DNA from: Synechococcus sp. A18-25c
Lineage (GTDB): Bacteria > Cyanobacteriota > Cyanobacteriia > PCC-6307 > Cyanobiaceae
Reading direction: 5' to 3'
DNA: 64,000 nt
NCBI RefSeq assembly: GCF_014280035.1
Contig: NZ_CP047957.1
Span: 248,001 to 312,000 of the forward strand
Positions 6,403-30,865 of the stretch are shown one piece after another. Below the pieces are notes generated by a model. That model did no database searches. It saw nothing but the letters and a program-made list of their open reading frames with translations, and had not been told where the DNA came from. Positions within the stretch are counted from its first letter, which is position 1; each line of letters starts with the position of its first letter. A program made the translations under genes and the position numbers.

Positions 6403-6508
6403 GTGCGATCCAGGCTGAGGGCGTCAGTTCGCTTGCGATGAGCGAACTGTACGGAAGTTGTCCTTAAAGGCCATCCCATCGTTTCAGACACGGCAGGATG
6501 GACGCAAC

Positions 6509-7336: not shown

Positions 7337-7339
7337 GCC

Positions 7340-8269
7340 ATGCGCCGTAGTGTCCGCGAAGCCATCGTTGGGTTCTCGATCGTTGGAGCGATCGCTGGGT
7401 TTGCCGGCACGATGCTGTGGTTAAGAGGCGTTCGGCTCGGCTCTGAAACCTGGACTGTGACGGCTGACTTTCAGAACGCCGGCGGGTTAGCGGCACGATC
7501 TCCAGTGACGTTCCGGGGAATCATGGTGGGAACAGTGCGCTCGATTCAGGTCACGCCAATGGCGGTGCGCGCCATTTTGGAAATCAATGATGAATCCCTG
7601 CAGCTTCCCCTTCCCGTCAAGGCTGCGGTGTCGTCCGCTTCCTTGCTGGGCGGCGACTCTCAGGTGGAACTCGTGACGACGGGTGTCCCTTTACCCAAAG
7701 GGGCACCAGGGCCGAAGTCACGTCGTTGCAAGGGCAGTGAAATCCTCTGCGATGGAGCGACCATTCGCGGTGAATCCGCTGCGAGTCTCGCCACGATCAC
7801 CGCCACCCTGGAACAGCTGTTGAGTGAGGCGCAAAACGCCAACCTGATTCCTGCGTTGGTGGAATCCACCAAGCAGTTCGGCATTACCAGCCAAGATGCC
7901 TCCACGTTCTTGAACACCGCCGATGAGGCGGCTGGGAATGTTGATGCGCTGGTACAGGAGCTGCGCGAAGAATTGGCTCGGGCCCAACCCACGGTTGACA
8001 ATCTCAACCGCGCTACGGCTGAGGCTGCCGCCGCCGCTGCCAATATCAACGCGCTGGCTGAAGCGTTCAACAATCCTCAGACCGTCGGCGACCTCAAGCA
8101 AACGGTGACCAATGCCCGTGATCTCACCGCTCGGCTGGATTCCGTCAGCGGTGACATCGAGCAACTCACCGACGATCAGCGCTTCATGACGGGTCTGCGC
8201 AACGTGATGATTGGTTTGGGGGCCTTCTTTGAGGAGGTCTATCCCGCGAAGACCGGACCAGCGAATTAG
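7340..8269 (+). CDS. MCE/MlaD family lipid-transport protein
   Basis: A 309-residue protein with one N-terminal membrane anchor (about residues 10-28). An MCE domain follows (VTADFQNAGGLAARSPVTFR, then GIMVGTVRSIQV) and then a long alpha-helical C-terminal region rich in Ala, Glu and Asn. MCE proteins form the substrate-binding ring or tube of lipid importers such as Mla and chloroplast TGD2. It begins 3 nt after the ATPase stop, so the two are one operon. Its neighbour chlD is convergent, 10 nt away. Confidence 0.92.
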   Translation: MRRSVREAIVGFSIVGAIAGFAGTMLWLRGVRLGSETWTVTADFQNAGGLAARSPVTFRGIMVGTVRSIQVTPMAVRAILEINDESLQLPLPVKAAVSSASLLGGDSQVELVTTGVPLPKGAPGPKSRRCKGSEILCDGATIRGESAASLATITATLEQLLSEAQNANLIPALVESTKQFGITSQDASTFLNTADEAAGNVDALVQELREELARAQPTVDNLNRATAEAAAAAANINALAEAFNNPQTVGDLKQTVTNARDLTARLDSVSGDIEQLTDDQRFMTGLRNVMIGLGAFFEEVYPAKTGPAN

Positions 8270-8279
8270 CCCTCGCCTC

Positions 8280-10457
8280 TCACGTCACAGAGTTGATGGC
8301 ATCCATGGCCACCGCGGCAATGGCCTGATCGCTCGCCTTCGGCAGCTGCACGTATTTGCCGCCCGCTGCTTCGGCAAGGTCTTTGCCCATACCACTGCCA
8401 ATGAATTTGCGCTCGGTGTCGATCACCAGCAGCTTGATTCCGAGCATGCGGTAGCGGCTGGCGACATCCAGCACCTCCTGCTTGAGGTCGGGCTTGTCCT
8501 CGCCCTCCAGTTCGGGTTGTCCTAAGGAGGTGCTGAGGGGCACATTGCCGCGTCCGTCGGTGATGGCGACCACAACCACCTGACCCAGATCACCGGTGGC
8601 GAGCGCATTGGCGCCGACCCGGGCCGCCTGGGTGAGACCGTGGGCCAGCGGTGAACCGCCCCCACAGGGCATCGACTCCAGCCGTCGGCGGGCTGCGGTG
8701 ATTGAGCGTGTTGGCGGCAGCAGCACCTCAGCCTGATCGCCGCGGAAGGGGATCAGAGCCACTTCATCGCGATTTTCGTAGGCCTCCGTTAACAGACGGA
8801 TGACCGCCCCCTTGGCGCTTTGCATTCGGTTCAGTGCCATCGAGCCACTGGCATCTACCAGAAAGATCACCAGCGCTCCAGCCTGACGCTGCAGAAGCTT
8901 GGCCCGCAGATCGGCTTCCTCGACAATCACGGTGCGGTCCGGTTGCCGTTCGCGTCTCGCCTTCTGATAAGGCGCTGCAGCACGAAGGGTGGCGTCGACA
9001 GCGATCCGACGCACCGGGCCGCGGGGCAGCATCGGCTTCACATAGCGGCCGCGGCTGTCGCTGAGCACAACGGAACGGCTGCCGCTGTTGCCGCTTTTGC
9101 TCTTGGCGGCGTTGAACAGCAGCAGGTCGGAGTCGATAGCAACGGCTTCGGGATCGAGCATGAATTCCTCAGGCACTGCCGGTGGTGCCTGGTCTTCATC
9201 CGAGTCGTCGTCGTTGTCGTCGTCGTCAGGGTTGTCGTCGCTGTTGTCTTCAGGTTGATCGTCCTGGTCCTGGTCAGACCCTTCCGGCGGGGGTGGCTGG
9301 TCCTCCGTGTTCTGTTCGCCGGCGTCCGGTGGCGGTGGTGGCGTCTCGTCTTGGGGCGGCTCCGGCGGCGGCGGCGGCTCCATCTGCTGATCCGGGGGCG
9401 GCAGCTGTGACGCCCTTGGTGCGATCACCAGGGCCACCGCCACCTGCAGATCCTCGGCGTCAACTTGATCCCGACCGCTTAGCGCGGCGTGGGCCTTGGC
9501 CACGCGCACGGCGTAGAGCTCGGAGCGATGCCCTTCAACACCGCCGCGGATCGCTTCGGTGACCAGATATTCAATTTGCTCACGGCTGATCGAGACATCC
9601 GGCAGCCATTGGCGGGCCAGCAGCAGCTGGGTGGCGAGTGCGTCGGTGTCCTCCTTCCAGCGTTCCGCAAAACTGCGGCTGCACTGGCCATGACTCAGTA
9701 CAGCGTTGGTGATCTCCACACGCTGTTCGGTGCTCACCAGCTGATCGGCCGACAGGGCGATGGCAAAGCGGTCCAGCAGGTGATCGCGGACGTTGCCTTC
9801 CTCGGGGTTGTAGGTCGCGATCAGCAGTGGTCTGCAGGGATGGCTGAGGCTCAAACCTTCCCGTTCCACCTGGTTCTCGCCTGCTCCAACGGCTGCGAGC
9901 AGCAGGTTCACGATTCCGTCGTCCAGCAAGTTCAGCTCGTCGACGTAGAGCACCCCTCGGTGAGCTTCCGCCAGTAGGCCTGGCTGGAACACGGGGCTGC
10001 CGCTCGCCAACGATGCCGTCACATCGACGGCTCCGACGAGACGATCTTCCGTGATGCCAAGGGGGACCTGGACAAAAGGAGCGGGAATCACCGCGGATGG
10101 TGGTTCAGCACTGAGCTTGTCCCTGAGGCCGCTTCCCCATTCTTCCGGCCGTTTCGGATCCAAATTGCGTCCCGGTCCAATTGGCACCGGGGCATGGGCT
10201 GGGTCAAGAATTTCAATGGGTGGGAGTAAGGCATGCAGCCCCCTTGCGAGCACCGATTTGCCGGTGCCTCGGCCTCCGGCGATGATCACTCCTCCAAGCC
10301 CTGGATCCACAGCAGCCAGCATCAGGGCGAGCTTCAGCGTTCCATGGCCGGTGATCGCCGCCAACGGAAAGGCGCGGTTGGCTTGATCCATCGCTGCTGT
10401 GCTTGCCACGCCGCTGGCGACCCCTCCACCTGAAACCATGAACGTTTGCCGGCCCAT
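8280..10457 (-). CDS. chlD: Magnesium chelatase subunit D
   Basis: A 725-residue subunit of the ATP-dependent enzyme that inserts Mg into protoporphyrin IX, the first committed chlorophyll step. An AAA+ module comes first (Walker A-like [14 protein letters not shown] at about 61; [12 protein letters not shown]), then an acidic, proline-rich linker (about 375-440), then a von Willebrand A domain with the MIDAS motif DASGSMA at about 535. The frame stays open to 10988, but that extension covers folK on the other strand. The ATG at 10457 gives the usual ChlD length. Confidence 0.96.
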
Positions 10458-10460
10458 CGC

Positions 10461-10970
10461 GTGAGCGCCAGTCTCGCTGATCAAGCTTGTTCTTTGGCAG
10501 TGGCGTTGGGGGCCAATCGTCCGAGTGTTGCGGGTAGCCCTCGACAGACGCTGATCCACGTGCGTCCGGAGCTCGAAGCGTTGATGTGCGACTGGACTCA
10601 GACCAGCCCGATTCGCCTCAGCTGCTCCTGGTCGCCCCTGCTGGAAACACTTCCGGAAGGAGGGCCGCCTGGTCAGCCGATGTTTTGCAACGCTGTGCTC
10701 TTGATCCGCGGTGTGCCAGGCACTCCAGGTTTGGAGGCGGCACTGGCGTTGCTGGATCGTCTCCAAGTGTTGGAGGCGAAGTACGGCCGTGATCGCGACC
10801 GGGAAGAGCGTTGGGGGCCCCGGTCGCTTGATCTGGATCTGCTCTTCTGGGGCGATTGGCGGTTGGAGCATCCTCGACTGGTGTTGCCGCATCCACGCCT
10901 GCATCTCCGCTCGTTTGTGATGGAACCCCTGCTCGCGGCCATGCAGCGATCCACGCCCTGGCGCTCCTGA
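10461..10970 (+). CDS. folK: 2-amino-4-hydroxy-6-hydroxymethyldihydropteridine pyrophosphokinase (HPPK)
   Basis: A 169-residue enzyme of folate synthesis that transfers pyrophosphate from ATP to the hydroxymethyl pterin. Family motifs are [18 protein letters not shown] at the N-terminus, the FCNAV segment, and the HPPK signature [16 protein letters not shown], with [15 protein letters not shown] near the end. A GTG at 10461 is the likely start; a TTG at 10446 is the alternative. It starts only 3 nt from the chlD start on the other strand, so each promoter would lie within the opposite gene or very near it. It is convergent with the ABC exporter gene. Confidence 0.93.
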
Positions 10971-10971
10971 A

Positions 10972-12705
10972 TCAGCTCTCAGATGCAACGGTTCCGAGGT
11001 CGATCACGACATCGGCCAGGCGCAACAACTCAGGGTCGTGGCTGCTCAGCAGCACCAGCCGCTGCCTGGACCGTTCCTGAATCACCTCGCGCACCTGGAC
11101 TGCGGCGAGGGCATCTAGAAACGCTGTCGGTTCATCCAGCACGTCCACCGGCCGGTCCCGTAGCCAGGCGCGCAACAGTCCGAGTCGGTGAATCTCGCCC
11201 CCAGAAAAGGGGCTCTGGGCCAAAGCCATGGGGGCATCCAGGCCGTCCGGACGATCCAGTAAGTGCTGCAATCCCAGGCGGTGCAGCCAGCTTGCGATCG
11301 TGGCGTCCGGCAGGTCGTGGCCCAGGAGAAGGTTGTCGCGCAAGCTGGCTTCAAACAACGCTGCATGCTGGGGCGCGCAGGCCATCAATGCATGCAGTTG
11401 CCTGGCGCCCGCTGATCCTGAGAGCTGCCAGCGCTCGCCGCTGCAGGTGATTGTCCAGGCACTGTGTTCTTCCTCCTGCAACCCGCTGATCTGATCCAGA
11501 AGGGTGGTCTTGCCGCAACCTGAGGGCCCTGTTACTGCGACCAGCTGGTTGGGGAGCAGGCGCAGGCTGAGGGTTCGGCTGCCGCACGTTGATGTGCTGC
11601 ACCAGTCCAGCTGCGTCCAACGGTTGCGGTCCAGTGTTGTCAGTGCAGGACCGTCCAAAATCATGCCTTTGCTCTGCTCAGGGCCTGGGCGCAGTTGCTC
11701 TCGGCGCAAGCAGAGGGCTTCATAGCCGGGGAGGTTGCCCAGGCACAGGCGCCGGGCCTGGACAACACCACTGAGTGAGGATCCGGCTCGGTATGCGAGC
11801 ACCAGGGTGGTGGTGAGTACCTCAGGGGTCAGGGCGTCACCTTGCAGGAGCAGCCAGAGGCTGGCGATCGCCACTACGAGCGTGTCGCGCCAGGCGTTGT
11901 AGCCCGCGCGGCGGCGCACCCGTTCGCGCAGCAGCCAGCGCCCTTTGGATGTTTCCTGGGCAAACCGATCCAGGAGCCAGTGTTCGGCTGCCGCTGCTCG
12001 AACAGCCTTGAGACCATGCAGGCCATCGCCCACGGTGCGCTGCAGTGCCGCATTCAGGCGGCTCTGGATGCGACCCAGACTCCAGCTTCCGGACCGCTGC
12101 AAGAGTGCGGCAATGGCGGTGGCCATCAGGGCCAGCAGCAGCGGCCAGGCGGCGGTTCGTCCCACCAGCAGCACGCTGGCCAGATAGATCACCATCGCCA
12201 GTAGAGCCTGAAGCATGCGCACCGCCTGGTCCATCCCGAGCGCGGTGCGGTTGATGTCGGCCATGAGCAACGCCAGCAAATCACCGCGGCCGAGTTGATC
12301 CAGCTGGTTCGACGATGCTGAGAACACCTGTTGCAGCAGTTGCTGACGCAGGCGATCCGTGAAACCGGAGCGCAGGCGTTCCCGGCTCACAGCCACGCGT
12401 CCCTGGATCAGTCCACGCAGGAGGATCAAAGCCACCAGCAGGGCAAGGCTTGCGGTCAGCGGCAAGCTGACGTTCAGCTCCCGGATCGCGTTGGCGTTGG
12501 ATCCATTGCCAAGCAGCAACGTGATGGCCAGACCCAGCCCTGCGATGTCCAGCACACTGCTGACCGCACTCAATCCGGCCAGGCGGCTCAGATGCCCCCA
12601 TCCGGCTTCTTGGGCCAGCGCCTTAAGCAGCTGAAGCTGTCGCCGCCGGGGCAGCACGGTGGGGGCAGCTGTTGGGGTAGCGGTGGTTCGCGCGTGATCG
12701 TGCAA
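10972..12705 (-). CDS. ABC exporter with fused membrane and ATPase domains
   Basis: A protein of about 577 residues with an N-terminal membrane domain of roughly five or six helices and a C-terminal ATPase: Walker [19 protein letters not shown], signature [18 protein letters not shown] and Walker [14 protein letters not shown], then [12 protein letters not shown]. The signature lacks the canonical Q after SGGE. The substrate is unknown. The start is not secure: a TTG at 12705 and a GTG at 12657 are both possible, and there is no ATG nearby. The longer open frame to 12921 overlaps the NUDIX gene and is rejected. Confidence 0.85.
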
Positions 12706-19597: not shown

Positions 19598-20787
19598 TCA
19601 ACGCAACATCACCGATCTGAGCAGACTTCTGACGAACCGCTCGGCGCTGCGATCGATTCCTCCGATCATGTTGTCCATTGTCTTGAAGCTTCTTCGCCAT
19701 TCAACGCAGCGACATTCGAGGTTGTTCTCGTAGGTGCGTGTGATGTGTCAATAGTGCAGTCGATTTGAAATCCTTTGCTCAGGATCTGGCCGGCCAGCCC
19801 TCCGCTGTGAATGGCGCGGTCGATCCCATGCCCGATCATGGGATCCACCCTTGAGGCTGCATCACCCGTGAGCAGAATCCCAGATGGGGATTGGAGCCGC
19901 GGATCGTCTGTCAACACCGCTATTCCCCAGGTTCTGATGGCGTCACCTCTTGGAGCATGCTGACGGGTGAGCGCCAGGAGATCGCAACCGCTGAGGGGTG
20001 AAATGTCGCGGTGATGAGACCAGTAGATGCCAGCGTTTGTTCCGCCAGTCACTGAAAAACGCCAGGCGTAGGAGGGGTTGCTAGGCCACTGATAATCCAT
20101 CAGTGAAACGTCCGGATTTTCAACTTCGTCACGCCTGGAATATCTGCGGCTCGCCAATGCAATCGGACGTGGAGCGTGTTGTTCACGCGTCAGGTTTTGC
20201 ACAACTGAGGACACACCGTCACACCCAACCACCACCTTGTCAGTGACTTCGAATCGTTCCTGCACCTGCCCTTTGCGGCTGCGAATTGTGCCTGCAACAC
20301 ACCAGGGATCAGAGGCTGAGAGACGGTGGAGCGATTGCATCTGCCAACCGAATTCGATTGGCAATCCAGCCCTCGAACAGCACTCAACCAGCCAGTTGTC
20401 GAGGTCGATGCGGCGAATGCTGTGAAAGGACGCTGTCTTCTGCCGCTGGGCAGTGCCCTGCAGAAATTAGCCACTGGCTTCGGCGAGGGCGGGCGTCAGC
20501 TCTGCTTAGCTGGGTTTGCGGGTCACGCTGACCGATCTCTGAATGATCTTGGAGGGGAGGTTGTTCTCTCTCAGGAAACGAAGCGCATCGCCTGTCAGGG
20601 CATCACCGCAGATGTTGTCTCTTGGGAAGTGGGCACGGTCAATCGCCAGCACGTCAAGTCCACTTTTCGCTGATTCCGTTCCGCAGGCTGTGCCTGCAGG
20701 GCCGAGACCCACGATCAGAACCTGAACCTTGTTGTTGGACTTGTGCCCTGCTCGCCTTCCGGTCGGTGTCAAGGGCGGGGAATGCAA
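19598..20787 (-). pseudogene. Decayed geranylgeranyl-reductase-family flavoprotein gene
   Basis: One reading frame on the minus strand encodes an FAD-dependent oxidoreductase like the geranylgeranyl reductases. It has the dinucleotide fold [18 protein letters not shown], then [46 protein letters not shown] and GILLTGDAASRVDPMIGHGI. It is broken by two in-frame TAA codons (20506-20508 and 20467-20469) with homologous sequence continuing on both sides. Near 19745 the C-terminal coding sense shifts frame: TYENNLECRCVEWRRSF is read in another frame to a TGA at 19598. Three separate lesions argue for a true pseudogene over a single sequencing error. The N-terminal limit is approximate. Confidence 0.82.
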
Positions 20788-21512: not shown

Positions 21513-23000
21513 GTGACTGTTGCTCCTGCTGCTGAACGCTTCAAACGAGCGGAGTGGGCCAGCTCCTTTCGCAATGTGGAGCAGGAGCTCAGCGCGGTAC
21601 CGGTCAAGCCCGTTCGGGGCACAGTTCCCGCGGAGTTGTTAGGCACGCTGTATCGCAACGGACCTGGTCGCCTCGAGCGTGCCGGCCAGCGCGTGCATCA
21701 CCCCTTCGATGGGGACGGCATGATCACTGCCCTGCGGTTCGACGCAGGTGGTTTGTCTCTCACCAACCGCTTTGTGCGCACTGCTGGCTGGCAGGCGGAA
21801 GAAGCGGCTGGCAAGGTGCTTTATCGCGGTGTGTTCGGCAGCCAGAAGCCGGGTGGTCGTCTGGCCAATGCTTTTGACCTGCGCCTGAAGAACATCGCCA
21901 ACACAGGCGTGGTCAGGCTCGGTGATCAGCTGCTCGCTCTTTGGGAGGCGGCTGAACCCCATGCGCTTGACCCTCACAGCCTGGATACCCATGGCATTTG
22001 CCTGCTGGGTGGCGTGCTGAAAAAGGGTGAGGCGTTCAGTGCCCATCCCCGCTTCGATCCAGGTCATCACGACCGTCCACGCATGGTCACCTTTGGTGTG
22101 AATACGGGGCCGCGCAGCACCATCCGGCTGATGGAATTCGCCACGGAGGATGACGCTGCAGCCGGCATCAAGGCCGGTGATCTGCTCAATGACCGCCGCG
22201 ATACCTTCGGCGGTTTTGCCTTTCTGCATGATTTTGCGATCACGCCCAACTGGGCGGTGTTCCTTCAGAACGCGGTCGACTTCAACCCCCTGCCGTTTGT
22301 GCTCGGAGAAAAAGGAGCCGCGCAATGTCTCCGCTCGAATCCCAACGGTCAGGCCAAGTTTTGGTTGATTCCCCGTGATAGCGGCGCATTTGCTGGGCAA
22401 GCGCCACGCATTATCGATGCTCCTGATGGGTTCGTGTTTCATCACCTCAATGCCTGGGAAGAGGGAAGTGATGTGGTGGTGGACAGCATCTACTACAGCG
22501 ATTTCCCCTCGATTGGCCCGGACGTGGACTTTGCGGCTGTGGATTTCGACCTGATCCCCGAAGGTCTGCTGGAGCAGTGCCGAATCCATCTCGACCGCGG
22601 CGCGGTGGAGAGCACGCGCCTCAGCGAGCGCTGCTGCGAGTTCGCCATGGTGAACCCTGAGCGGGAAGGTCTGCCCTGTCGCTTTGCCTGGATGGCCGCA
22701 GCGGCGCGCAAGCAGGGCAATGATCCCTTGCAGGTGATCAAGAAGCTGAACCTCAGTACGGGTGAGCATCAGATCTGGAGTGCAGCACCGCATGGGTTTG
22801 TCAGTGAGCCCCTGATGGTTCCCAGGCCCGGTGCGTCCAGCGAAGACGACGGATGGATTCTGGAACTGGTGTGGAACGGTGCCAGGGATGGCTCCGATCT
22901 CGTGATCCTTGATGCGTCTGACCTGCGGGAACTGGCTGTGCTGGAGCTGCCGTTGGCCATCCCCCATGGCTTGCATGGCAGCTGGGTAGCCGCTGGCTGA
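21513..23000 (+). CDS. Carotenoid cleavage oxygenase
   Basis: A 495-residue member of the RPE65/carotenoid oxygenase family. All four iron-binding His contexts are visible: SAHPRFDPGHHD, FLHDFAITPNW, FVFHHLNAWEEG and AIPHGLHGSWV. The N-terminal LYRNGPGRLERAG and HPFDGDGMI are also family blocks. These enzymes split carotenoids or apocarotenoids, for example to retinal or apocarotenals; the exact bond cut cannot be told from sequence. A GTG at 21513 is the likely start. hisB ends 57 nt upstream. Confidence 0.94.
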   Translation: MTVAPAAERFKRAEWASSFRNVEQELSAVPVKPVRGTVPAELLGTLYRNGPGRLERAGQRVHHPFDGDGMITALRFDAGGLSLTNRFVRTAGWQAEEAAGKVLYRGVFGSQKPGGRLANAFDLRLKNIANTGVVRLGDQLLALWEAAEPHALDPHSLDTHGICLLGGVLKKGEAFSAHPRFDPGHHDRPRMVTFGVNTGPRSTIRLMEFATEDDAAAGIKAGDLLNDRRDTFGGFAFLHDFAITPNWAVFLQNAVDFNPLPFVLGEKGAAQCLRSNPNGQAKFWLIPRDSGAFAGQAPRIIDAPDGFVFHHLNAWEEGSDVVVDSIYYSDFPSIGPDVDFAAVDFDLIPEGLLEQCRIHLDRGAVESTRLSERCCEFAMVNPEREGLPCRFAWMAAAARKQGNDPLQVIKKLNLSTGEHQIWSAAPHGFVSEPLMVPRPGASSEDDGWILELVWNGARDGSDLVILDASDLRELAVLELPLAIPHGLHGSWVAAG

Positions 23001-23014
23001 CCAGATGGATCCGT

Positions 23015-23034
23015 TGATCACTTTGCGGTGATCA
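23015..23034. other. Perfect stem-loop after the carotenoid oxygenase gene
   Basis: TGATCAC and GTGATCA form a 7-bp perfect stem with a 6-nt loop, 14 nt after the oxygenase stop. There is no T-run, so it is either a weak terminator or an mRNA-end stabilising hairpin. Confidence 0.45.
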
Positions 23035-23107
23035 GTCACGCGTCAGTTACCTCTTGGCTCGCCAGTGGACCTAGACATCGGGACTTGCTCTAATTCCCCT
23101 TTTGTTG

Positions 23108-23812
23108 ATGTGCTCCAGGCTTGTCTCTGCTCCCTGTCTGGTCCTGGCAGCGCCACTGCTGGCTGGCGTCGTTGTTCCCTCTCCTTTGCGAGCGATGAGC
23201 CATGAGCCTCAGTGTCGTGGCACGTTGCTGCAGCTGCTGGTTCAGGAGCAAGGTCAAGCCCGCTCCGAACGCTTTCGCTTCAACCTGCGCTTGGAAGCTG
23301 AGGCCGCCAGCGCTGCGGCTGCGCTGGATCAGCTCAACAGTCGACTCGATGCCCTGCGCCAAGCTTTCAATCCCTTGGTGCAAGACAGCCTGGTGGTTTC
23401 GGCTCCCAGCACCTTTCCGATCGGATCGGCCGTTCCTGACAGCCGTACGCGTGCTGCGACGACAATCAGCGGCCAGGTCCGCCGTAGCGACTACGACACC
23501 TTGATTCAGCGGGCCGGTCGCTTGCCAGGGGTGCGGCTACAGGGCATGACCTCGCTGGCCTCCGCTAGCGGACAGCAGGCACTGGAAGAGCGTTTGCTGA
23601 AGCGTGCGTTGGAGCGTGGTCAGCGCCAAGCCGACCGCACTGCCTCCGCGCTGGGGCTTCGCCGCACGTCGCTGTTGCGAATTGACCAGCGCAGCAGGCC
23701 GCCGGTACGCGCACTGGCGATGGCTGCGGATGCCTCCTCTCGCTTCAGGCCTGAAGAAGCCCCATTGCCGATTGGAAGCATCAATTTGGCTCTGGATTAC
23801 TGCCTGAGCTGA
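23108..23812 (+). CDS. SIMPL domain (DUF541) protein, exported
   Basis: A 234-residue protein with an N-terminal signal peptide (hydrophobic to about residue 25) and a SIMPL/DUF541 domain: ALDQLNSRLDALRQAFNPL, TTISGQVRRSDYDTLIQRAG, and ALERGQRQADRTASALGLR. The C-terminus LPIGSINLALDYCLS matches the family's final beta strand. The function is unknown; relatives are periplasmic or outer-membrane associated and linked with stress tolerance. ATG 23108 is preferred to two TTG codons just upstream. It is convergent with the BCCT transporter gene. Confidence 0.82.
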   Translation: MCSRLVSAPCLVLAAPLLAGVVVPSPLRAMSHEPQCRGTLLQLLVQEQGQARSERFRFNLRLEAEAASAAAALDQLNSRLDALRQAFNPLVQDSLVVSAPSTFPIGSAVPDSRTRAATTISGQVRRSDYDTLIQRAGRLPGVRLQGMTSLASASGQQALEERLLKRALERGQRQADRTASALGLRRTSLLRIDQRSRPPVRALAMAADASSRFRPEEAPLPIGSINLALDYCLS

Positions 23813-23848: not shown

Positions 23849-25387
23849 CTAGTGATGGCGCCATTCCTTCCAGGCCAGGCGCGGAGCCGTCCAGAGTGTG
23901 AAGAGCACCAGGGGGGTGACCGGCACCGCGGTGATCACGATGAAGGCCTGCAGGGCATCGATGGAGGTGCTGTCCCCCAGGCCCGAGTCGATGCGCAGCA
24001 GCACCAGGGTGAGGCTGCCGATCATCAGGGCCCAGAACAGGCGCAACAGAGCAGGGGGCTGCTTGCGACCGCTCACCACCATGGCCGCGGCGTAACTCAT
24101 CGAGTCGGCGCTGGTGCACATGAACAGCACCACCAGCACCAGGCCGATGGGGATCAGAACGCTCGCCAGGGGTAACTGACTGAGGATGGTGAGCAGTGCT
24201 GCTGCGGCGCCGTTCTGATCCAGCGCTGCACGGATGCCACCTCCAGCCAACTGCAGATACAGCCCCGTACCGCCAAGCAGGGTGAACCAGAGGTTGGTCA
24301 CGATCGGGCAGAGGATGGCCACCGCCAGCACCAGTTCACGGATGCTGCGGCCGCGGCTGACGCCTGCTGTGAACAGACCCATCAAGGGCGCATAGCCGAG
24401 GAACCAGCCCCAGTAGAACACTGTCCAGTCGTTCACCCAGTTCGGCGGCACGGTGTTGGGGGTTAGGGCCATCTGCGGCAGATGGATCAGGTAGGTGATG
24501 AAGCCGCTGAAGAAGTGTTGGATCAGCCAGAGGCCCGGGCCCAGGAGAAGCAGACCCGTCGCCAGGACCAGGGTGAGCCACACGTTGAGCTCGGAGAGCC
24601 ACTTAATGCCCTTCTGAATGCCGCTAACGGTGGAGGCCGCGAAGACGGCGGTCAGCAGCACCACCACCAGGGATTGCAGTCCTGCACTGTCGCTGAGCCA
24701 GGGCAGTCGACCTGCGGCGTTGCTGAGTTGCAGGGACAAGAACCCCAGGGGGCCAACCGTGCCGGCGATCGCGGCCACGACCGACAAGCCATCGGCCAGG
24801 TCACCGATCGGGCCATCCACCCAGCTGCGCGGCACGATGCTCACCAGGAGCGTGCGGGGACGCAGGGGTTCACCGCGTCGCTCCTGGATTGAAAAGGTGA
24901 TCGTGGTGGTGGTGGCCACCAGGGCCCAGGCCAGAAAGCCCCAGTGCAAAAAACTCACCGCCAGGGCTGGGTCGACTGCGGCCGGTGTGCTGCCTTCGAC
25001 CCCTGCAAACACCGGTGATGGGGTTTGGAAGTGATACAGCGGTTCGGCTGCCGACCAGAACACACCACCCCCCGCCAGCAGGGTGCAGATCAGCACCGCG
25101 CACCAATCAAAGAATTTGAGACTTGGCTTGGCGTCCGCTCCACCCAGCCGGAGTGTTCCGATCGGGCTGATGGCCAGGGATAGCGCGATCAACAACAGCA
25201 CCACCACCATCCACTGCCAGACCCCCCCAAGGGCATCACTGACCACGGCTTTGCCGTTGTCGGTGAACTGCTTGGCCAGGGCCAGGTCGATCGCCGACAC
25301 CAGCAGAAAGATCAGCAGAGGAATGGCGCCGATCCAAAGAGGAGGCTGGCGCCACCAGGAGCGCTGGCTCGCGGGGATGTCAGACAT
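23849..25387 (-). CDS. BCCT family transporter with an altered aromatic box
   Basis: A 512-residue betaine/choline/carnitine-type transporter with about 12 transmembrane helices. Family blocks are GGGVFWSAAEPLYHF, VSFLHWGFLAWALVA and DWTVFYWGWFLGYAPLMG with SRGRSIREL. Aligning by eye to BetP, the TM4 aromatics Trp189 and Trp194 correspond to Trp149 and Trp154 here, but Tyr197 becomes Val157. In TM8, BetP Trp373/Trp374/Trp377 correspond to Trp328/Phe329/Tyr332. The substrate may therefore not be plain glycine betaine. It is the last gene of the operon 28685-23849, 18 nt after the oxidase. Confidence 0.92.
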   Translation of the reverse strand: MSDIPASQRSWWRQPPLWIGAIPLLIFLLVSAIDLALAKQFTDNGKAVVSDALGGVWQWMVVVLLLIALSLAISPIGTLRLGGADAKPSLKFFDWCAVLICTLLAGGGVFWSAAEPLYHFQTPSPVFAGVEGSTPAAVDPALAVSFLHWGFLAWALVATTTTITFSIQERRGEPLRPRTLLVSIVPRSWVDGPIGDLADGLSVVAAIAGTVGPLGFLSLQLSNAAGRLPWLSDSAGLQSLVVVLLTAVFAASTVSGIQKGIKWLSELNVWLTLVLATGLLLLGPGLWLIQHFFSGFITYLIHLPQMALTPNTVPPNWVNDWTVFYWGWFLGYAPLMGLFTAGVSRGRSIRELVLAVAILCPIVTNLWFTLLGGTGLYLQLAGGGIRAALDQNGAAAALLTILSQLPLASVLIPIGLVLVVLFMCTSADSMSYAAAMVVSGRKQPPALLRLFWALMIGSLTLVLLRIDSGLGDSTSIDALQAFIVITAVPVTPLVLFTLWTAPRLAWKEWRHH

Positions 25388-25405
25388 CGGTTGAGGGTTG
25401 AGGGG

Positions 25406-26596
25406 TCAGGCGCGGACGGCGTCGCGTTGGTGGCTCCAGCAGGAGAGATCGACGGCGGGTTGTTCTCCGCTGGCGAGGCGTGCCAGCGAATCACCGATCA
25501 GGGGAGCAAACTTGAAGGCCTGGCCCGAGCCACCTGCGAACAGGCTCAACTTCGGGGTGAGCCGATCCAGCACGAAGTTCACATCGCTGGCCATGGAGTA
25601 GGGGCTGATGACGGTCTCCACCCGCTCCTGGACACCCTCCAGTCCGTTGAACAGAAAGCTGTCGAGTAACTCCACCAATCGGGCCGGTGGTTCGGTGACC
25701 ATCGCATTGGGAGCGGCGACGCGCAGGCCGCGCGGGGCCCAGTCGATGCCGGCCTTGATTCGGGGGCGGCCATCCGGCGTATGGCTCAGCACCGGGAAGC
25801 CGTAATACAGCCCACCGTCATCGCCCCGCTCCTGCTGGAAGCAGAACCACTGGGGGTAGCGATCGGCCAGCGCCGGGTCGACGGTGTAGTGGGCCCAGAG
25901 CATCGGCCACACCTCCAGCTTTGGAGCCAATCCAAGGGGAGCCAGCAACAGCTGGCTCCAGATGCCGCAGGCCACGACCAACTGTCTGGCAGCAAGGTGG
26001 TGGCCGCTCTCGAGGGTGACGCCTCCGCCATCGGGATCGAGGCCCGCCACAGGGCAGTGCTCGATCAGCTGATGGCCAGCGTTGCGAGCGGTGTTGATCC
26101 AGTGGGCCACCACCTTGTCGCTGCGCACGGCACCAGCGGTGGGCTCGAACAGGCCGGTGAAGTCCGCCTCGGGCTTCAGCGGGAAGCGGGCCGCGATCTG
26201 GTCGGCATCGAGGGCTTCGTAGGGGATGCCCTGATCGTCCATCACCCTTCGGGCCCCGGGGATCGACCCCTCGATCGTTTCCTCATCCCAGCTTTCGCCG
26301 TAAAACAGCAAGCCATGGGTCTCTCGCAGTTTTGCGTCGGCGTGGAGTTCCTCGTCCCGCCAGAGGCGGTTGGCCTCCTGGGCCAGACGGCAGAGCATCG
26401 GGTCGGAGTACATCTCTCGGAACATCCGGGTTTCGCCGTAGCTGCTGGCCTTGGCGTGGGCCAGAGTCTGGGCTTCCAGCAACACCACATCGTGCACGCC
26501 GCGGCGGGCCAGGGATGCAGCACAGCTGAGGCCGGCCATGCCGCCGCCAACAATGATGACTGCCGCTTGGGTCGGTAGGGATTGGAGGGGGGTCAT
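25406..26596 (-). CDS. Sarcosine-oxidase/N-methyl amino acid oxidase-like flavoprotein
   Basis: A 396-residue FAD oxidoreductase. The FAD fold is VIIVGGGMAGLSCAASLARR, followed by the SSYGETRMFREMY motif typical of monomeric sarcosine and N-methyltryptophan oxidases, and GGSGQAFKFAPLIG near the C-terminus. In monomeric sarcosine oxidase a Cys near the C-terminus binds FAD covalently; here that position appears to be Ser331 (SPYSMASDVNF), so FAD is probably not covalent. It overlaps the upstream dehydrogenase by 4 nt (ATGA) and precedes the BCCT gene. The likely reaction is oxidation of an N-methyl or other secondary amine. Confidence 0.85.
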   Translation of the reverse strand: MTPLQSLPTQAAVIIVGGGMAGLSCAASLARRGVHDVVLLEAQTLAHAKASSYGETRMFREMYSDPMLCRLAQEANRLWRDEELHADAKLRETHGLLFYGESWDEETIEGSIPGARRVMDDQGIPYEALDADQIAARFPLKPEADFTGLFEPTAGAVRSDKVVAHWINTARNAGHQLIEHCPVAGLDPDGGGVTLESGHHLAARQLVVACGIWSQLLLAPLGLAPKLEVWPMLWAHYTVDPALADRYPQWFCFQQERGDDGGLYYGFPVLSHTPDGRPRIKAGIDWAPRGLRVAAPNAMVTEPPARLVELLDSFLFNGLEGVQERVETVISPYSMASDVNFVLDRLTPKLSLFAGGSGQAFKFAPLIGDSLARLASGEQPAVDLSCWSHQRDAVRA

Positions 26597-27648
26597 TGGC
26601 TGTCTCCGAAGCTCAGTCCGATGGGGTTGCGTTCGCGTTTAGCTGCCACTTCCTCGAGGGCTGCACCCACTGATAAGCCCTGATCGCGTTGATTGAGGTA
26701 TTCACTGGCCCGCTGCCGCACTTTGCTGCGCACAAAGGCGTACACATCCTCAGCACCAGCGTGCTTCCAGGCTTCGGGGGAGAAGCGTTCGATGGAGTCG
26801 GTGATCACGGCACCGGCATTCACCAGTGGATCCGGCAGCACGCGAATGCCGCGGCGACGCAGATCACTGGCGAGTTGTGGTGTCTGAAATGGGGCATTCG
26901 CTGCCGGAACTACAGACTTCACCCGCAGGGCTGAAGCGATCTTGGCCGTGATCAGCCCTGAAATGGAGCAAGGGAGAAGCAGATCCAGTGTCAGCTCCCA
27001 CCACGGACAGTTCAGTGGCAAGGGGGTTGCACCGTCGAAGCCGGCGCGTTCGCGGTTGACATCCACGGTGAAGACTGTCCAGCCGTGATCGACGAGATGA
27101 CGGGCCACCGTCCCGCCGACAGCTCCGCAGCCGTGCACGAGGGCCCGGCCGGGGTTGGCGTCTTTGAGTTCCTTCTCCAGCACGGCCTCCACGGCGCCGA
27201 GGGTGCCGTGGGCCGTGGTGGCACTGGCATCCACTGGGCTGCCGACCGCCGCTAGCACGTGGGGGGTGAGCGCCATCAGACGCTCCATATCCTCCAGGCT
27301 GGTGTTGAGGTCGCAGCCGGTGATCATGGCGCCATCGAGCGACTCCAGCAGCTCGGCGGTGACGTGGATCAATTCATCTTTCACCGCTTGCGGCTCGGCG
27401 GCTCGGGCCACGATCTTGCCCCCGGCAAAACCGGTGCCATAGAGATCGTGCTTGTGGGTCATCAACCCCGCCAGCCGCTGTCCGTCGGCGATGCAGGCTT
27501 CGTCGCTGGGGTAGTTGAGCAGGCGCAGGCCCCCGTTGGCGGGACGTCTGGCATCAGTGTCTTCCGCCACCACGAATACCGAAAGGTGGTCGGAGACATG
27601 TTCCGCCAGCACCGACACAATCGGCGCTGTTGTCATGCCATTGCCCAT
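26593..27648 (-). CDS. Glu/Leu/Phe/Val dehydrogenase family protein
   Basis: A 351-residue amino-acid dehydrogenase of the leucine dehydrogenase type. The expected catalytic residues are present: Lys66 (GLMTHKH), Lys78 (FAGGKIV) and Asp113 (GCDLNTS). The NAD fold is ALVHGCGAVGGTVARHL. It would interconvert a 2-oxo acid and an amino acid with NAD(P)H; the substrate is unknown. Its ATG overlaps the methyltransferase stop by one base (TGATG) and its own stop overlaps the oxidase start by four, so translation is likely coupled. Confidence 0.9.
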   Translation of the reverse strand: MGNGMTTAPIVSVLAEHVSDHLSVFVVAEDTDARRPANGGLRLLNYPSDEACIADGQRLAGLMTHKHDLYGTGFAGGKIVARAAEPQAVKDELIHVTAELLESLDGAMITGCDLNTSLEDMERLMALTPHVLAAVGSPVDASATTAHGTLGAVEAVLEKELKDANPGRALVHGCGAVGGTVARHLVDHGWTVFTVDVNRERAGFDGATPLPLNCPWWELTLDLLLPCSISGLITAKIASALRVKSVVPAANAPFQTPQLASDLRRRGIRVLPDPLVNAGAVITDSIERFSPEAWKHAGAEDVYAFVRSKVRQRASEYLNQRDQGLSVGAALEEVAAKRERNPIGLSFGDSQ

Positions 27649-28685
27649 CAGGCCACCTTTTCCATCATTTGGTGGTGCTCGACATAATCGAGACTCCAGT
27701 CGCTTGGAGCGTCAGCGATGCGCTGTTGCAGCCGCTCGAACAGGGTGTCTGCAGCGGCCTCTCCGGCGGCACCGATGAAGCTGTGGCGGCTCCAGCTGCG
27801 GATCGTTGCCATCAATCCTGCGGCGAAGGTCGCCGTATCGCCGTTCTCGTTCCAGCGGCGGCGGTAAGGGCACTTCACATACACCGTGCGTTCATCCACC
27901 AGGCGCAGGCCGTTGCGGTATGGCGCCGAGCTGCTGTCGTTCAAGGGCGCCATGAACTCCTGAGGGGACTTGTAGAAGTTCAAAACGGTTCCGTTGCGGT
28001 ACTGCTCATCGCTGATCAGGCCCTCGTCCGCCATGCCACGCCAGATCTGGTGCAGTTGGTCATGCACGTTGTGGGTTTCTCCGCCGTTGTGGCCGAGATA
28101 GAGGCCCGCTTCATCACGGGAGAGATTCACGGTCAGTAGTCGGCCGCCCACCTTCAGCTCACGGCTGCGTAGCTCAAGAATGTGGTTCCAGTCCCTCATC
28201 GCCTGGGCAGTGAAGCGCTGGAGGGCCTCGGCATCACTGGAGGCCAGCACATGGGTGTGGCTGTCGAGGGGGCCAGGAGAGGTGCTCAGCCAGTGCATGG
28301 CGGTGGCGGAGAAGCCGAAACTCACGGAGTTCGGTGCCACGGTGGGCTTATAGAAGCTGCACGCACTCACCAGCACCGTTGGCTTTGGATCCCGGGGAGC
28401 TTGCAACGCCAGGTTCTTCGCCAACGCCACGTTGTCGTTGCTCGGCAGGTCGTTGCCGATCAGCGTCAGGTGCGCTTTTGGCTGGTTGGTGTGCAGGCGA
28501 TCCAGCACCTGATTCCAAAGCCCGACAGCGGTGCCGCCATCGGCCGCTCCGTAATCGATCAGAACATGGCTGTCAGCAACAGCCAGTTGATTCACACAAG
28601 TCAGGGCCCAGTCGGAGGCGGCTTCGATGCAGAGGAGAGCGCCTTCGGTCTGCGCGCTGTAACCCGTGGTCATGGCAATGGCCAT
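27648..28685 (-). CDS. SABATH-type SAM-dependent carboxyl methyltransferase
   Basis: A protein of about 345 residues like the plant salicylate/jasmonate/indole-acetate carboxyl methyltransferases (SABATH family). Motifs are VLIDYGAADGGTAVGLWNQV for SAM binding, TLIGNDLPSNDNVALAKNL, and GFSATAMHWLSTSPGPL, the SABATH substrate-pocket block. An alpha-helical cap with IWRGMADEGLISDEQYRNGT follows. It probably puts a methyl group on a small carboxylic acid, or less likely on nitrogen. Starts at TTG 28703, ATG 28685 or ATG 28673 are possible. It is the first gene of the coupled operon, 73 nt after rdgB. Confidence 0.85.
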   Translation of the reverse strand: MAIAMTTGYSAQTEGALLCIEAASDWALTCVNQLAVADSHVLIDYGAADGGTAVGLWNQVLDRLHTNQPKAHLTLIGNDLPSNDNVALAKNLALQAPRDPKPTVLVSACSFYKPTVAPNSVSFGFSATAMHWLSTSPGPLDSHTHVLASSDAEALQRFTAQAMRDWNHILELRSRELKVGGRLLTVNLSRDEAGLYLGHNGGETHNVHDQLHQIWRGMADEGLISDEQYRNGTVLNFYKSPQEFMAPLNDSSSAPYRNGLRLVDERTVYVKCPYRRRWNENGDTATFAAGLMATIRSWSRHSFIGAAGEAAADTLFERLQQRIADAPSDWSLDYVEHHQMMEKVA

Positions 28686-28758
28686 GGACCTCGTCAGCGT
28701 CAAGGTCCACCGTAAGACCGAGCTTGATCAGGCGCGTGATTCGCCTGGGCGGTTGGGT

Positions 28759-29346
28759 TCAGTGCACCGTCAGCAGTTGGCGCAGCTGCGGTTCCAGCAA
28801 GACGAAAGCTCGCCCTCGATGGCCATGACTTTTCTTCTCGATAAGTGACATCTCAGCAAAGGTGCGACCGGTGCCGTCGACTTCGAAAATCGGGTCGTAG
28901 CCAAAACCCTGGTCTCCACGTGCTGCGTGCGTGATGCGTCCTTCACAGCGGCCTTCCACCTCCAACAGCACTGAGCCGTCGGGGGCCGCCACGCAGAGCG
29001 CTGCACAGAAGTGGGCTGCACGCGCCTGCTGGTCACCCAGAGCCTTCAGCAATCGCGCAATTCGTTCGGGGTCGCTCGGGGCATAGCGAGCCGAATGCAC
29101 GCCAGGCGCCCCATCGAGGGCGTCGACACTGAGGCCCGAGTCATCCGCCAGTGCCCACTCACCCGTTGCAGTTGCAACGGCTAACGCTTTGATCCGAGCG
29201 TTGGCCGCAAAGGTGCTGCCGGTTTCCTCCACTTCCAAGCCTTGCGGTTGCGGTCGCACCAGCAGGGGCAGATCGCTGAGCAGACCTTCGAATTCCCGGA
29301 TCTTGCCCTGGTTTCCGCTGGCGATGACCAATGTGCGCTTGCTCAT
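28759..29346 (-). CDS. rdgB: Non-canonical purine NTP pyrophosphatase (RdgB/HAM1)
   Basis: A 195-residue house-cleaning enzyme that removes ITP, dITP and XTP from the nucleotide pool. Family motifs are VIASGNQGKIREFEGLL at the N-terminus, ALADDSGLSVDALDGAPG with VHSARYA, and GFGYDPIFEVDG. The C-terminus SLIEKKSHGHRGRA completes the active site. It begins 2 nt after the phosphohexomutase stop, so those two are co-transcribed; whether transcription continues into the methyltransferase is open. Confidence 0.96.
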   Translation of the reverse strand: MSKRTLVIASGNQGKIREFEGLLSDLPLLVRPQPQGLEVEETGSTFAANARIKALAVATATGEWALADDSGLSVDALDGAPGVHSARYAPSDPERIARLLKALGDQQARAAHFCAALCVAAPDGSVLLEVEGRCEGRITHAARGDQGFGYDPIFEVDGTGRTFAEMSLIEKKSHGHRGRAFVLLEPQLRQLLTVH

Positions 29347-29348
29347 GC

Positions 29349-30812
29349 TCAGGCTGCCTCCGCAAAACGGCGCGCCCAGGTCAGCACCGTTGCCACCCGC
29401 TCAGCATCGGGCGCTTCGCAGTAGAGCCGCAGCAGCGGCTCGGTGCCGGAGAAGCGCAGCATCAACCAGTGACTGGCTCCCAGCCTCAGTTTCACGCCGT
29501 CGGTGGTGATCACCTCCTGCACCGGCAAGCCTGCGATTTCCTGAGGCGGTGTGGTGGCCAGCAGCGATTCCAGACGGCGACGGGACTCCATGTCGGCCAG
29601 CCGCAGATCGAGACGGTCGTAATGGCTTGCGCCGCCGCATCGCTGCCGCAGCGCTTCCATTCGAGCGCCGAGCGGTTGACCGCCCTGCACTAGGGCTTCC
29701 AGCACCAGCATCGCTGCAAACAGGGCATCTCGTTCTGGGAGGTGCATGCCAAAGCCCACCCCTCCGGATTCCTCACCGCCAATCAGCACCTCTCCGGCGA
29801 GCATTTCAGAGGCGATGTATTTGAAGCCGACGGGCAGTTCCAGCACCTCACGGCCCAGATCCTCAGCCACAAGGCGCATCAGATCGGAACCGCTAACGGT
29901 TTTGACCACCGATCCCGGCAGGTTGCGGGTGCCTGCAAGGTGATCGATCAGTAGGGGCATCAGCTGCTGGGTGCTGCAGAAGCGGCCTTGCTCGTCCACA
30001 GCGGCGATACGGTCACCATCGCCGTCAAACACCAGGCCCACAGCGGGCTGGCCCTGTTGGCTGCAGGCCCGAATGGCTGCGATCAGCTCTTTCAGATAAG
30101 GGGCAAGCGGTTCCGGAGGGCAGCCACCAAACAATGGATCTCGATTGCCGCGGATCTCCGACACCAGACCGTCCACGTCGGTGCCCAGCAGGTCTTGCAC
30201 ACACCCCGCTGCAGAGCCGTGCATCGGATCCACAATCACCCGCAGCCCCATCGCTTTCAGCCCGGCGCGGATTGCATCCAGATCCAGCTTGCGCCGCAGG
30301 CCTTCGAGATGCTCGCTGCGGGCATCGAAGCGCTCCAATTCCCCAGCGACCGGGACGTTGAGCGCTCCAGCGGCCAGGCGCTGTTCCACAGCTGCGGTGA
30401 AGTCTCCCTCAACCGACCCTCCGAACGGACCCTTGATCTTCAAGCCAAGCCATTCCGGTGGGTTGTGGCTGGCGGTGATCACCAGGGCCCCGAGGGCTTG
30501 GCGTTCCACCGCAGTCCAGCTGCAGGCTGGCGTTGGAACGGCTGAGCTCGTTAGCAGGGGTGTGAGGCCGACACCGCGGACGGCGGATGCAATCGCTTCA
30601 GCCAGTTCCGGGGCCAGGAAGCGACGGTCGTAGCCGATCACCACGGTGCGGCTTGTCAGGCCTTCTGGTGCCTGATGGGCGAGTTCTTGCGCGGAGGCTG
30701 CCGCAACGGGCAGCAGCCGTTCCACGGTGATGTCCACGCCAAGGATTCCGCGCCATCCGTCAGTCCCGAAGCGGATGGGTGCTGCAGCCAGAGGGAGGGG
30801 AGCCGACGCCAT
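29349..30812 (-). CDS. Phosphoglucomutase/phosphomannomutase
   Basis: A 487-residue alpha-D-phosphohexomutase. The phosphoserine loop is GALVITASHNPPEWLGLKIK, the Mg-binding loop is LVFDGDGDRIAAVDEQG, the sugar-specificity loop is GGEESGGVGFG, and the phosphate-binding end is LRFSGTEPLLRLY. It interconverts hexose 1- and 6-phosphates for sugar nucleotides and glycogen. The GEESGG loop is common to both glucose and mannose enzymes, so specificity is open. Start ATG 30812 is preferred; ATG 30830 is an alternative. Confidence 0.93.
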   Translation of the reverse strand: MASAPLPLAAAPIRFGTDGWRGILGVDITVERLLPVAAASAQELAHQAPEGLTSRTVVIGYDRRFLAPELAEAIASAVRGVGLTPLLTSSAVPTPACSWTAVERQALGALVITASHNPPEWLGLKIKGPFGGSVEGDFTAAVEQRLAAGALNVPVAGELERFDARSEHLEGLRRKLDLDAIRAGLKAMGLRVIVDPMHGSAAGCVQDLLGTDVDGLVSEIRGNRDPLFGGCPPEPLAPYLKELIAAIRACSQQGQPAVGLVFDGDGDRIAAVDEQGRFCSTQQLMPLLIDHLAGTRNLPGSVVKTVSGSDLMRLVAEDLGREVLELPVGFKYIASEMLAGEVLIGGEESGGVGFGMHLPERDALFAAMLVLEALVQGGQPLGARMEALRQRCGGASHYDRLDLRLADMESRRRLESLLATTPPQEIAGLPVQEVITTDGVKLRLGASHWLMLRFSGTEPLLRLYCEAPDAERVATVLTWARRFAEAA

Positions 30813-30865
30813 GGGATGCCTGTGCTGCATGTGGATCTAGCAGCCGGCCGCCGTAACGTCGGCGG

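Follow-up and report, generated by a model that had tools for sequence, protein, structure and literature searches.

The window analysed here is a stretch of 64,000 nucleotides from the genome of Synechococcus sp. A18-25c (NZ_CP047957.1, positions 248,001 to 312,000). Its minus strand carries four adjoining genes (Table 1) for a SABATH-type methyltransferase, an amino-acid dehydrogenase, a flavoenzyme and a BCCT family carrier. Judged from their sequences, these genes quite probably form an operon for the conversion of lysine to homarine (N-methylpicolinate), a nitrogen-bearing, zwitterionic osmolyte that is common in the sea. The host genome consists of 2,511,360 bases in a single contig; the named genomes most closely related to it are titled Synechococcus, and we take them to be marine from the names of strains and samples.

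Table 1. Genes of the putative homarine operon, with positions in the window.
Product	Position	Strand	Pfam family and proposed function
SABATH-type S-adenosylmethionine (SAM)-dependent methyltransferase, 345 amino acids	27648..28685	-	PF03492; proposed picolinate N-methyltransferase (homarine synthase)
Glu/Leu/Phe/Val-dehydrogenase-type enzyme, 351 amino acids	26593..27648	-	PF00208 + PF02812; proposed L-lysine alpha-dehydrogenase giving piperideine-2-carboxylate
Flavin adenine dinucleotide (FAD) oxidase, monomeric sarcosine oxidase/NikD family, 396 amino acids	25406..26596	-	PF01266; proposed piperideine-2-carboxylate oxidase giving picolinate
BCCT family carrier, 512 amino acids	23849..25387	-	PF02028; proposed betaine (homarine) carrier

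The first-pass annotation of this DNA had described four minus-strand genes with two short overlaps and one short gap, and this layout proved exact when spacing and coordinates were checked again on the window. The methyltransferase and dehydrogenase genes overlap by 1 nucleotide (TGATG at 27648), the dehydrogenase and flavoenzyme genes by 4 nucleotides (ATGA, 26593-26596), and 18 nucleotides (25388-25405) separate the flavoenzyme gene from that of the carrier. The methyltransferase gene starts with the ATG at 28685; the same frame is also opened by an upstream TTG at 28703. A scan for promoters and terminators at the operon gave no signal exceeding that of shuffled sequences. All four family assignments made at first sight were borne out by Pfam domains, with scores of 81.9 bits for PF03492 (Methyltransf_7, gathering cut-off 29.8), 155.5 for PF01266 (DAO) and 429.1 bits for PF02028 (BCCT); only the term sarcosine-oxidase-like turned out less apt for the flavoenzyme than NikD-like, because its best solved relative is NikD (2oln).

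The gene arrangement was examined with the dehydrogenase as query against a collection of 84,980 genomes, a scan that detects close relatives only. It resulted in 23 loci; 21 are titled Synechococcus, one 'Cyanobacteria bacterium' (L005), and one belongs to an actinobacterium (L023). The order methyltransferase-dehydrogenase-oxidase-BCCT is kept in 22 of the 23 loci, all of them cyanobacterial, including two in which a contig end truncates the methyltransferase gene (L001 and L002) and one in which it truncates the BCCT gene (L018). The actinobacterial match is 31% identical and lacks the partner genes, and a search of that genome for the oxidase at 1e-10 found no match. With the order conserved in 22 of 23 loci, the arrangement is not due to chance; the loss of synteny that would have spoken against the earlier proposal was not seen. 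Twelve further regions selected from the family comprise nine with all four genes, two with the three enzymes (L035 and L036) and one with the dehydrogenase alone. The 1-nucleotide overlap between methyltransferase and dehydrogenase genes is kept even in L036, a 1.7-Mb relative with a dehydrogenase that is 49% identical.

Next to this order stands the co-occurrence of the enzymes, which was counted in 300 family genomes taken as a fixed sample, 197 of them of high quality; methyltransferase and oxidase were scored at E <= 1e-30. Exactly the same 53 genomes have the methyltransferase and the oxidase, and all of these also have the dehydrogenase, which occurs alone in one more (G030); 246 genomes have none of the three. 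Dehydrogenase matches in G035 and G182, which contain stops and have E values near 1e-3, were scored as absent. This strict co-occurrence supports one operon and one pathway, as the first-pass annotation had supposed, and the three enzymes form one unit as far as comparative genomics can establish it. In a sample of 386 genomes from the phylum the methyltransferase was found in 20, every one within the family of the window. Within the window's own genus a strong oxidase match is present in 30 of 31 genomes, the sole miss being a genome that is 58% complete. The dehydrogenase occurs in 28 of the 34 genomes of a second genus, g5; among high-quality genomes the count is 17 of 19. In a third genus, g18, it is found in 11 of 200 genomes (4 of 66 of high quality); the genome size is <=1.7 Mb among the g18 matches listed, and a twelfth match, which is weak and holds a stop, is not counted.

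Some copies of the genes are irregular. The methyltransferase match is split into two overlapping pieces in G231 and G242, the oxidase match of G112 begins at position 48 and misses its start, and the carrier of G273 holds an in-frame stop; each may reflect decay or a sequence error. The solitary dehydrogenase of G030 (L034, G030:C23, 6573-7568) is 60% identical and has the same Asn/Asp pocket as the window enzyme (see below); it could be a relic or an enzyme of another pathway.

The carrier is less strictly tied to the locus. A search for it at E <= 1e-20 covered a selection of 66 genomes, namely the 53 with the enzyme trio, G680, G747, G030 and 10 in which the dehydrogenase is missing. Of the 53 trio genomes, 52 have the carrier, and in 51 it adjoins the oxidase by coordinates; in G270 the carrier copy, 62% identical, is located elsewhere and not beside the trio. 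No match was obtained at this threshold in G229, in the dehydrogenase-positive g18 genomes G680 and G747, in G030 or in the 10 dehydrogenase-negative genomes. In L035 and L036, both from 1.7-Mb relatives, the three enzyme genes stand in a row with no carrier adjoining. Since the trio persists without an adjacent carrier, biosynthesis explains it more easily than the use of a compound brought in from outside. This argument is not decisive, because carrier and trio otherwise go together. The carrier belongs to the BCCT family (PF02028) but scores only 298.4 bits against the model for BCCT glycine betaine transporters (NF047988, cut-off 650), and glycine betaine uptake as the only purpose of the operon was rejected on these grounds. 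BCCT carriers import betaines, and the protein would be a carrier for homarine or related betaines.

The dehydrogenase has the fold and the catalytic residues of the leucine dehydrogenase (ELFV) superfamily, with Lys66, Lys78 and Asp113 invariant in 16 of 16 sequences. A phmmer alignment places Lys68, Lys80, Asp115 and Asn261 of 3vpx, the numbering of which agrees with the residues given in PMC8766677, opposite Lys66, Lys78, Asp113 and Asn251, so that the catalytic residues are kept. The predicted structure (pLDDT, the per-residue confidence, 87; pTM, the predicted template-modelling score, 0.87) has the fold of leucine and phenylalanine dehydrogenases, with a Foldseek E value of 2.1e-22. What differs is the substrate pocket. 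Leucine dehydrogenase has Leu40 and Val294 there and glutamate dehydrogenase has Lys89 and Ser380, which alters the chemistry of the pocket; the same source cautions that positions 40 and 294 alone do not switch specificity (PMC2723916). In the superfamily this pair of positions distinguishes enzymes for charged from those for hydrophobic substrates. The hydrophobic pair is absent from the window enzyme, which has Asn38 and Asp284 instead, again invariant in 16 of 16 sequences. The placement of Asn38 is unambiguous in the alignment with 3vpx. Asp284 lies opposite Val294 in an ungapped profile alignment to 6acf that also puts Glu287 on Glu297, and the model shows a continuous helix (279-289) around it. 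Such an Asn/Asp pocket is what a cationic side chain, for example that of lysine, would call for, and would fit it better than leucine; the acid would suit ornithine as well as lysine. When lysine loses its alpha-amino group by oxidation and the ring closes, the product is piperideine-2-carboxylate, the substrate of NikD. A tryptophan chemistry of the scytonemin type was also considered and rejected, because the enzyme scores 97.5 bits against the model of the tryptophan dehydrogenase ScyB (NF035922), far below the cut-off of 600.

NikD is the best solved relative of the oxidase both with the single sequence and with a 15-member profile. The latter gives 146.7 bits for 2oln, 131.2 for the best sarcosine oxidase (7exs) and 125.5 for monomeric sarcosine oxidase (MSOX). 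The curated models are not reached: the protein scores 140.6 bits with TIGR01377 (monomeric sarcosine oxidase, cut-off 479.65) and 184.7 bits with NF008425 (N-methyltryptophan oxidase, cut-off 257), which is the nearest NCBIfam model. The active sites were compared in an independent MAFFT alignment of 15 orthologues with NikD, MSOX and 7exs; the letters of the NikD residues were checked by numbering. Arg60, Glu109, Tyr265, Asp285 and Lys362, each conserved in 15 of 15 orthologues, lie opposite Arg53, Glu101, Tyr258, Asp276 and Lys358 of NikD. The arginine and lysine of NikD correspond to Arg52 and Lys348 of MSOX, which hold the carboxylate of the substrate. The Glu/Asp pair, on the other hand, sets NikD apart from the two sarcosine oxidases, and the query family has it (Glu109/Asp285). 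As a background we used 30 actinobacterial proteins that were found with TIGR01377 in a sample of 198 genomes and come from one set of 30 genomes; in all, 51 genomes had matches at E 1e-60. No protein of this background reaches the curated cut-off of the model. Glu109 and Asp285 occur together in only one of the 30 (L094). By sequence, NikD-like is thus a more fitting description of the flavoenzyme than sarcosine oxidase.

The methyltransferase is a member of the SABATH family by its PF03492 score and by structure, with SABATH enzymes on all of Foldseek ranks 1-29, albeit with a model of moderate confidence (pLDDT 74). The profile matches 11 sequences of the Protein Data Bank, and every one of them is an O- or N-methyltransferase of the SABATH type. 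A mycobacterial fatty-acid O-methyltransferase (5f2k) is first, plant carboxyl methyltransferases are next, and N-methyltransferases of the xanthine/theobromine type are mostly lower; Foldseek again ranks the mycobacterial enzyme first, with N-methyltransferases directly after. His131-Trp132 and Ala16 are invariant in 15 of 15 sequences. In the lineage of plant salicylate methyltransferases (SAMT), His at position 150 goes with a preference for benzoate, and the change H150M is reported to suffice for the switch to salicylate (PMC10853004). Ala16 stands opposite a Gln of 8wwq (by HMMER) and of 5f2k (by eye, in the printed stretch). This is the position of Gln25 of SAMT, the residue that holds the carboxylate; the Gln of carboxyl methyltransferases is thus replaced by Ala in the window enzyme. 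PMC8877179 describes the trigonelline synthases of coffee as SABATH enzymes that use nicotinate, an isomer of picolinate. Methylation of picolinate on its nitrogen is therefore plausible chemistry for this fold, and by this analogy it is a plausible activity of the window enzyme, although the weakest step of the proposal.

These features can be combined into a pathway. The leucine-dehydrogenase-type enzyme would remove the alpha-amino group of L-lysine, and the resulting 2-oxo acid would cyclize (L-lysine + NAD(P)+ -> piperideine-2-carboxylate + NH3 + NAD(P)H). By comparison with NikD, the flavoenzyme would then aromatize the ring in a four-electron oxidation (piperideine-2-carboxylate + 2 O2 -> picolinate + 2 H2O2), and this aromatization would pull the unfavourable deamination of lysine. 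Finally, the SABATH-type enzyme would methylate the ring nitrogen (picolinate + SAM -> homarine + S-adenosylhomocysteine), and the BCCT protein would import or recapture homarine or related betaines. What is seen directly is the gene order, the co-occurrence, the families, the residue patterns and the fact that a strain reported to contain homarine carries the operon. The first-pass annotation had found that the four genes match no known pathway; a proposed answer is to join a picolinate-forming oxidase to a SABATH N-methyltransferase. In its full form the proposal is of a dedicated homarine pathway, with a new lysine alpha-dehydrogenase with an Asp pocket, an aromatizing oxidase related to NikD with non-covalent FAD, a bacterial SABATH picolinate N-methyltransferase and a BCCT homarine carrier. 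This we consider probable from the sequences.

The strain in question is WH7803 (CT971583.1, L016), which carries all four genes of the operon. Heal et al. (2021) report homarine in both Synechococcus strains tested, at up to 18 mM after a correction that lowered the values 25-fold and left WH7803 with about 0.2 mM. Particulate homarine in the surface ocean amounts to 0.02-2.7 nM and to as much as 0.25% of particulate carbon after correction (Heal et al.); the values of Boysen et al. (2021) were likewise corrected. Heal et al. call the biosynthetic pathways of homarine uncharacterized and cite a route from quinolinate, Boysen et al. state that genetic information on its synthesis is lacking, and a study in ISME Communications (2022) calls the diatom pathway unknown. 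As to the fate of homarine, one study reports that a marine bacterium quickly drew it down, and PMC13390433 cites Ferrer-Gonzalez 2026 on its catabolism. Among the titles and beginnings of abstracts covered, our literature searches found neither a described homarine biosynthetic gene nor, for the operon genes and cyanobacterial SABATH enzymes, a description of such an operon; preprints and most subscription journals were outside their scope, so this is no proof of novelty.

A number of observations weigh against a homarine pathway or against single steps of it. The placement of Asp284 in the dehydrogenase depends on the ungapped alignment, and phmmer sets a gap of two residues there against 8gxd and 3vpx. 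In the oxidase, Glu at position 109 occurs singly in 7 of the 30 background proteins and Asp at 285 in 2 of the 30, and the Glu109 column falls in a poorly aligned and poorly conserved stretch. Mutants of NikD in Glu101 and Asp276 reportedly lose little activity; the Glu/Asp pair therefore marks kinship more than mechanism. Moreover, the cysteine that binds FAD covalently is missing. This residue, Cys321 of NikD and Cys315 of MSOX, is present in both enzymes and in 30 of 30 background proteins; the window family has Val or Phe at 329, Ser331 in 15 of 15 and no Cys at 326-335, and two of the 15 orthologues have a Cys at 325, six residues upstream of the covalent-FAD position. Gln359 (15 of 15) stands where NikD has Trp355, which lies over the flavin, and where His is found in MSOX and in 30 of 30 background proteins. 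Two further positions resemble MSOX instead of NikD: Lys281 (15 of 15; Lys in 30 of 30 background proteins) corresponds to Lys265 of MSOX and to an Arg of NikD, and Tyr333 (15 of 15) to Tyr317 of MSOX and to a Leu of NikD. Both MSOX residues are part of the active site. The oxidase may thus work like NikD with non-covalent FAD, yet it is no ordinary NikD. Among solved structures the methyltransferase is closest to an O-methyltransferase, and the Ala in place of Gln25 is no more than suggestive. Among the genomes, G030 carries the dehydrogenase alone; the methyltransferase, oxidase and carrier gave no match there at the thresholds used. As for the producers, the homarine production of WH7803 is about 100 times lower than that of WH8102, and Heal et al. 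(2021) record the compound in some diatoms and in a haptophyte as well. The match between operon and producer is thus with WH7803, the weaker of the two.

Three other readings of the locus were weighed against homarine synthesis from lysine. The first two steps could be the same while the methyltransferase acts on the carboxyl group and makes methyl picolinate, a neutral and volatile ester, or while ornithine serves as substrate and gives a five-ring analogue, a derivative of pyrrole-2-carboxylate. That SABATH enzymes generally methylate oxygen (PMC9822479) and that a fatty-acid O-methyltransferase is the nearest solved relative argue for the ester, and Asp284 would presumably accept ornithine as well as lysine. 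However, homarine is the compound reported in WH7803 and WH8102, the Gln that anchors the carboxyl group is replaced by an invariant Ala, and the adjoining betaine carrier fits a zwitterion; we therefore regard this reading as unlikely. A different product altogether, such as another aromatic or cyclic betaine or a signal derived from an amino acid (for example a substituted picolinate), would be compatible with the fact that sequence cannot give exact substrate pockets, and the homarine of WH7803 might stem from the decarboxylation of quinolinate, the route cited by Heal et al. Yet for homarine derived from quinolinate both the dehydrogenase and the oxidase would be superfluous, and the three enzymes match step by step the chemistry that leads from lysine through picolinate to its methylation, which makes this reading very improbable.

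The operon could also be catabolic, as the first-pass annotation had suggested: the BCCT carrier would import an N-methyl amino acid or betaine, the flavoenzyme would demethylate it, the dehydrogenase would deaminate the product and the methyltransferase would esterify or detoxify the acid. The general use of BCCT carriers for betaines, the membership of the flavoenzyme in the family of sarcosine and N-methyltryptophan oxidases (NF008425 is nearest, though below its cut-off) and the MSOX-like Lys281 and Tyr333 are in line with it. On the other side, G229 and G270 have the trio with no adjacent carrier and the dehydrogenase-bearing G680 and G747 have no carrier match; Gln359 replaces the His of all background proteins and the covalent-FAD cysteine is missing; and for the methyltransferase, found together with the oxidase in 53 of 53 genomes, demethylation offers no evident task. 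We consider this reading improbable. A betaine-type solute is indeed likely to be involved, but a trio that is kept without an adjacent carrier argues against dependence on import. Oxidative demethylation is disfavoured by the overall score and the Glu/Asp pair, which bring the oxidase nearer to the aromatizing NikD than to the sarcosine oxidases. With a separable carrier, a NikD-like oxidase and a pocket that favours a cationic side chain over leucine, the sequence of uptake, demethylation, deamination and methyl-ester formation is left unsupported.

Homologs were also sought on mobile elements. Two scans of viral contigs with the profiles of dehydrogenase and methyltransferase found no relative, and a phage-carried module was rejected for this reason. 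A tblastn search of 72,556 plasmids with the three proteins matched 3, 209 and 109 records; when the best 3, 12 and 12 matches, respectively, were compared, no record common to two proteins was among them. Besides the plasmids, the search for the trio in other phyla covered the close-relative scan of 84,980 genomes and one actinobacterial genome. The best plasmid relative of the methyltransferase (32.6% identity), from a plasmid of Rhizobium sp. CB3171, adjoins a different DAO-family oxidoreductase, and no relative of the operon's dehydrogenase or oxidase lies within 19 kb of it. This region (L096, pCB3171_3, 6226-11339) is possibly another small-molecule methylation cluster. Its SABATH-type methyltransferase (33% identity, PF03492 120.6 bits) is preceded by an EmrE/EamA-type transporter and an open reading frame with sub-threshold matches to B12-binding and radical-SAM domains, and followed by the oxidoreductase; transposase genes are nearby.

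The surroundings of the operon are usually the same in the Synechococcus loci, as judged where contigs reach far enough (window 28759-30830 and 21513-23812). Upstream are genes for phosphoglucomutase and Ham1, and downstream are a gene for a carotenoid-cleavage oxygenase and one for a SIMPL-domain protein; the SIMPL-domain gene varies in position or is unmatched in some loci. Elsewhere on the minus strand of the window (19666-20787) a gene resembling flavin-dependent reductases (by eye, from its GxGxxG start) is interrupted by two in-frame stops about one quarter along the frame; it is either a pseudogene or the result of a sequence error.

If the operon does make homarine, its sources in the ocean could be recognized genetically, namely marine Synechococcus together with a minority of the genomes that resemble Prochlorococcus, and production of the compound could be read from genomes and transcripts by way of the four genes. 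The lysine route could then be tested against the older quinolinate proposal. From this reading follow predictions of three enzyme activities and of the picocyanobacteria that produce homarine.

The closest precedent for the first two steps is nikkomycin synthesis, in which an L-lysine 2-aminotransferase provides piperideine-2-carboxylate and an enzyme of the monomeric sarcosine oxidase type converts it to picolinate (PMC4021061). The window operon would share this route and the oxidase family, but it has a dehydrogenase in place of the aminotransferase, and picolinate would be methylated instead of being activated for a peptide antibiotic. The aminotransferase is NikC. The oxidase differs from NikD in lacking the covalent-FAD cysteine and Trp355 and in having the MSOX-like Lys281 and Tyr333. 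ScyB and the leucine dehydrogenases share the fold and the catalytic Lys/Lys/Asp with the window dehydrogenase, whereas the Leu40/Val294 pocket of leucine dehydrogenase is Asn/Asp in the window enzyme. For the last step the parallel is with the plant trigonelline synthases (CTgS1/2 of coffee), in which N-methylation of the SABATH type likewise turns a pyridine carboxylate into a betaine. The likeness is one of families; the plant enzymes act on nicotinate and, unlike the window methyltransferase, are not linked in an operon to synthesis genes. The carrier has the family and length of BetP and of the trimethylamine transporter 8zw8, but it scores below half of the curated value for glycine-betaine carriers, and in the FYWxWWxxW stretch of 8zw8 two of the four Trp are replaced by Phe329 and Tyr332 in 12 of 12 aligned orthologues; DddT shares the Tyr. 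Taken singly, the parts resemble known kinds; novelty would lie in their combination, the pocket, the absence of the flavin cysteine and the product.

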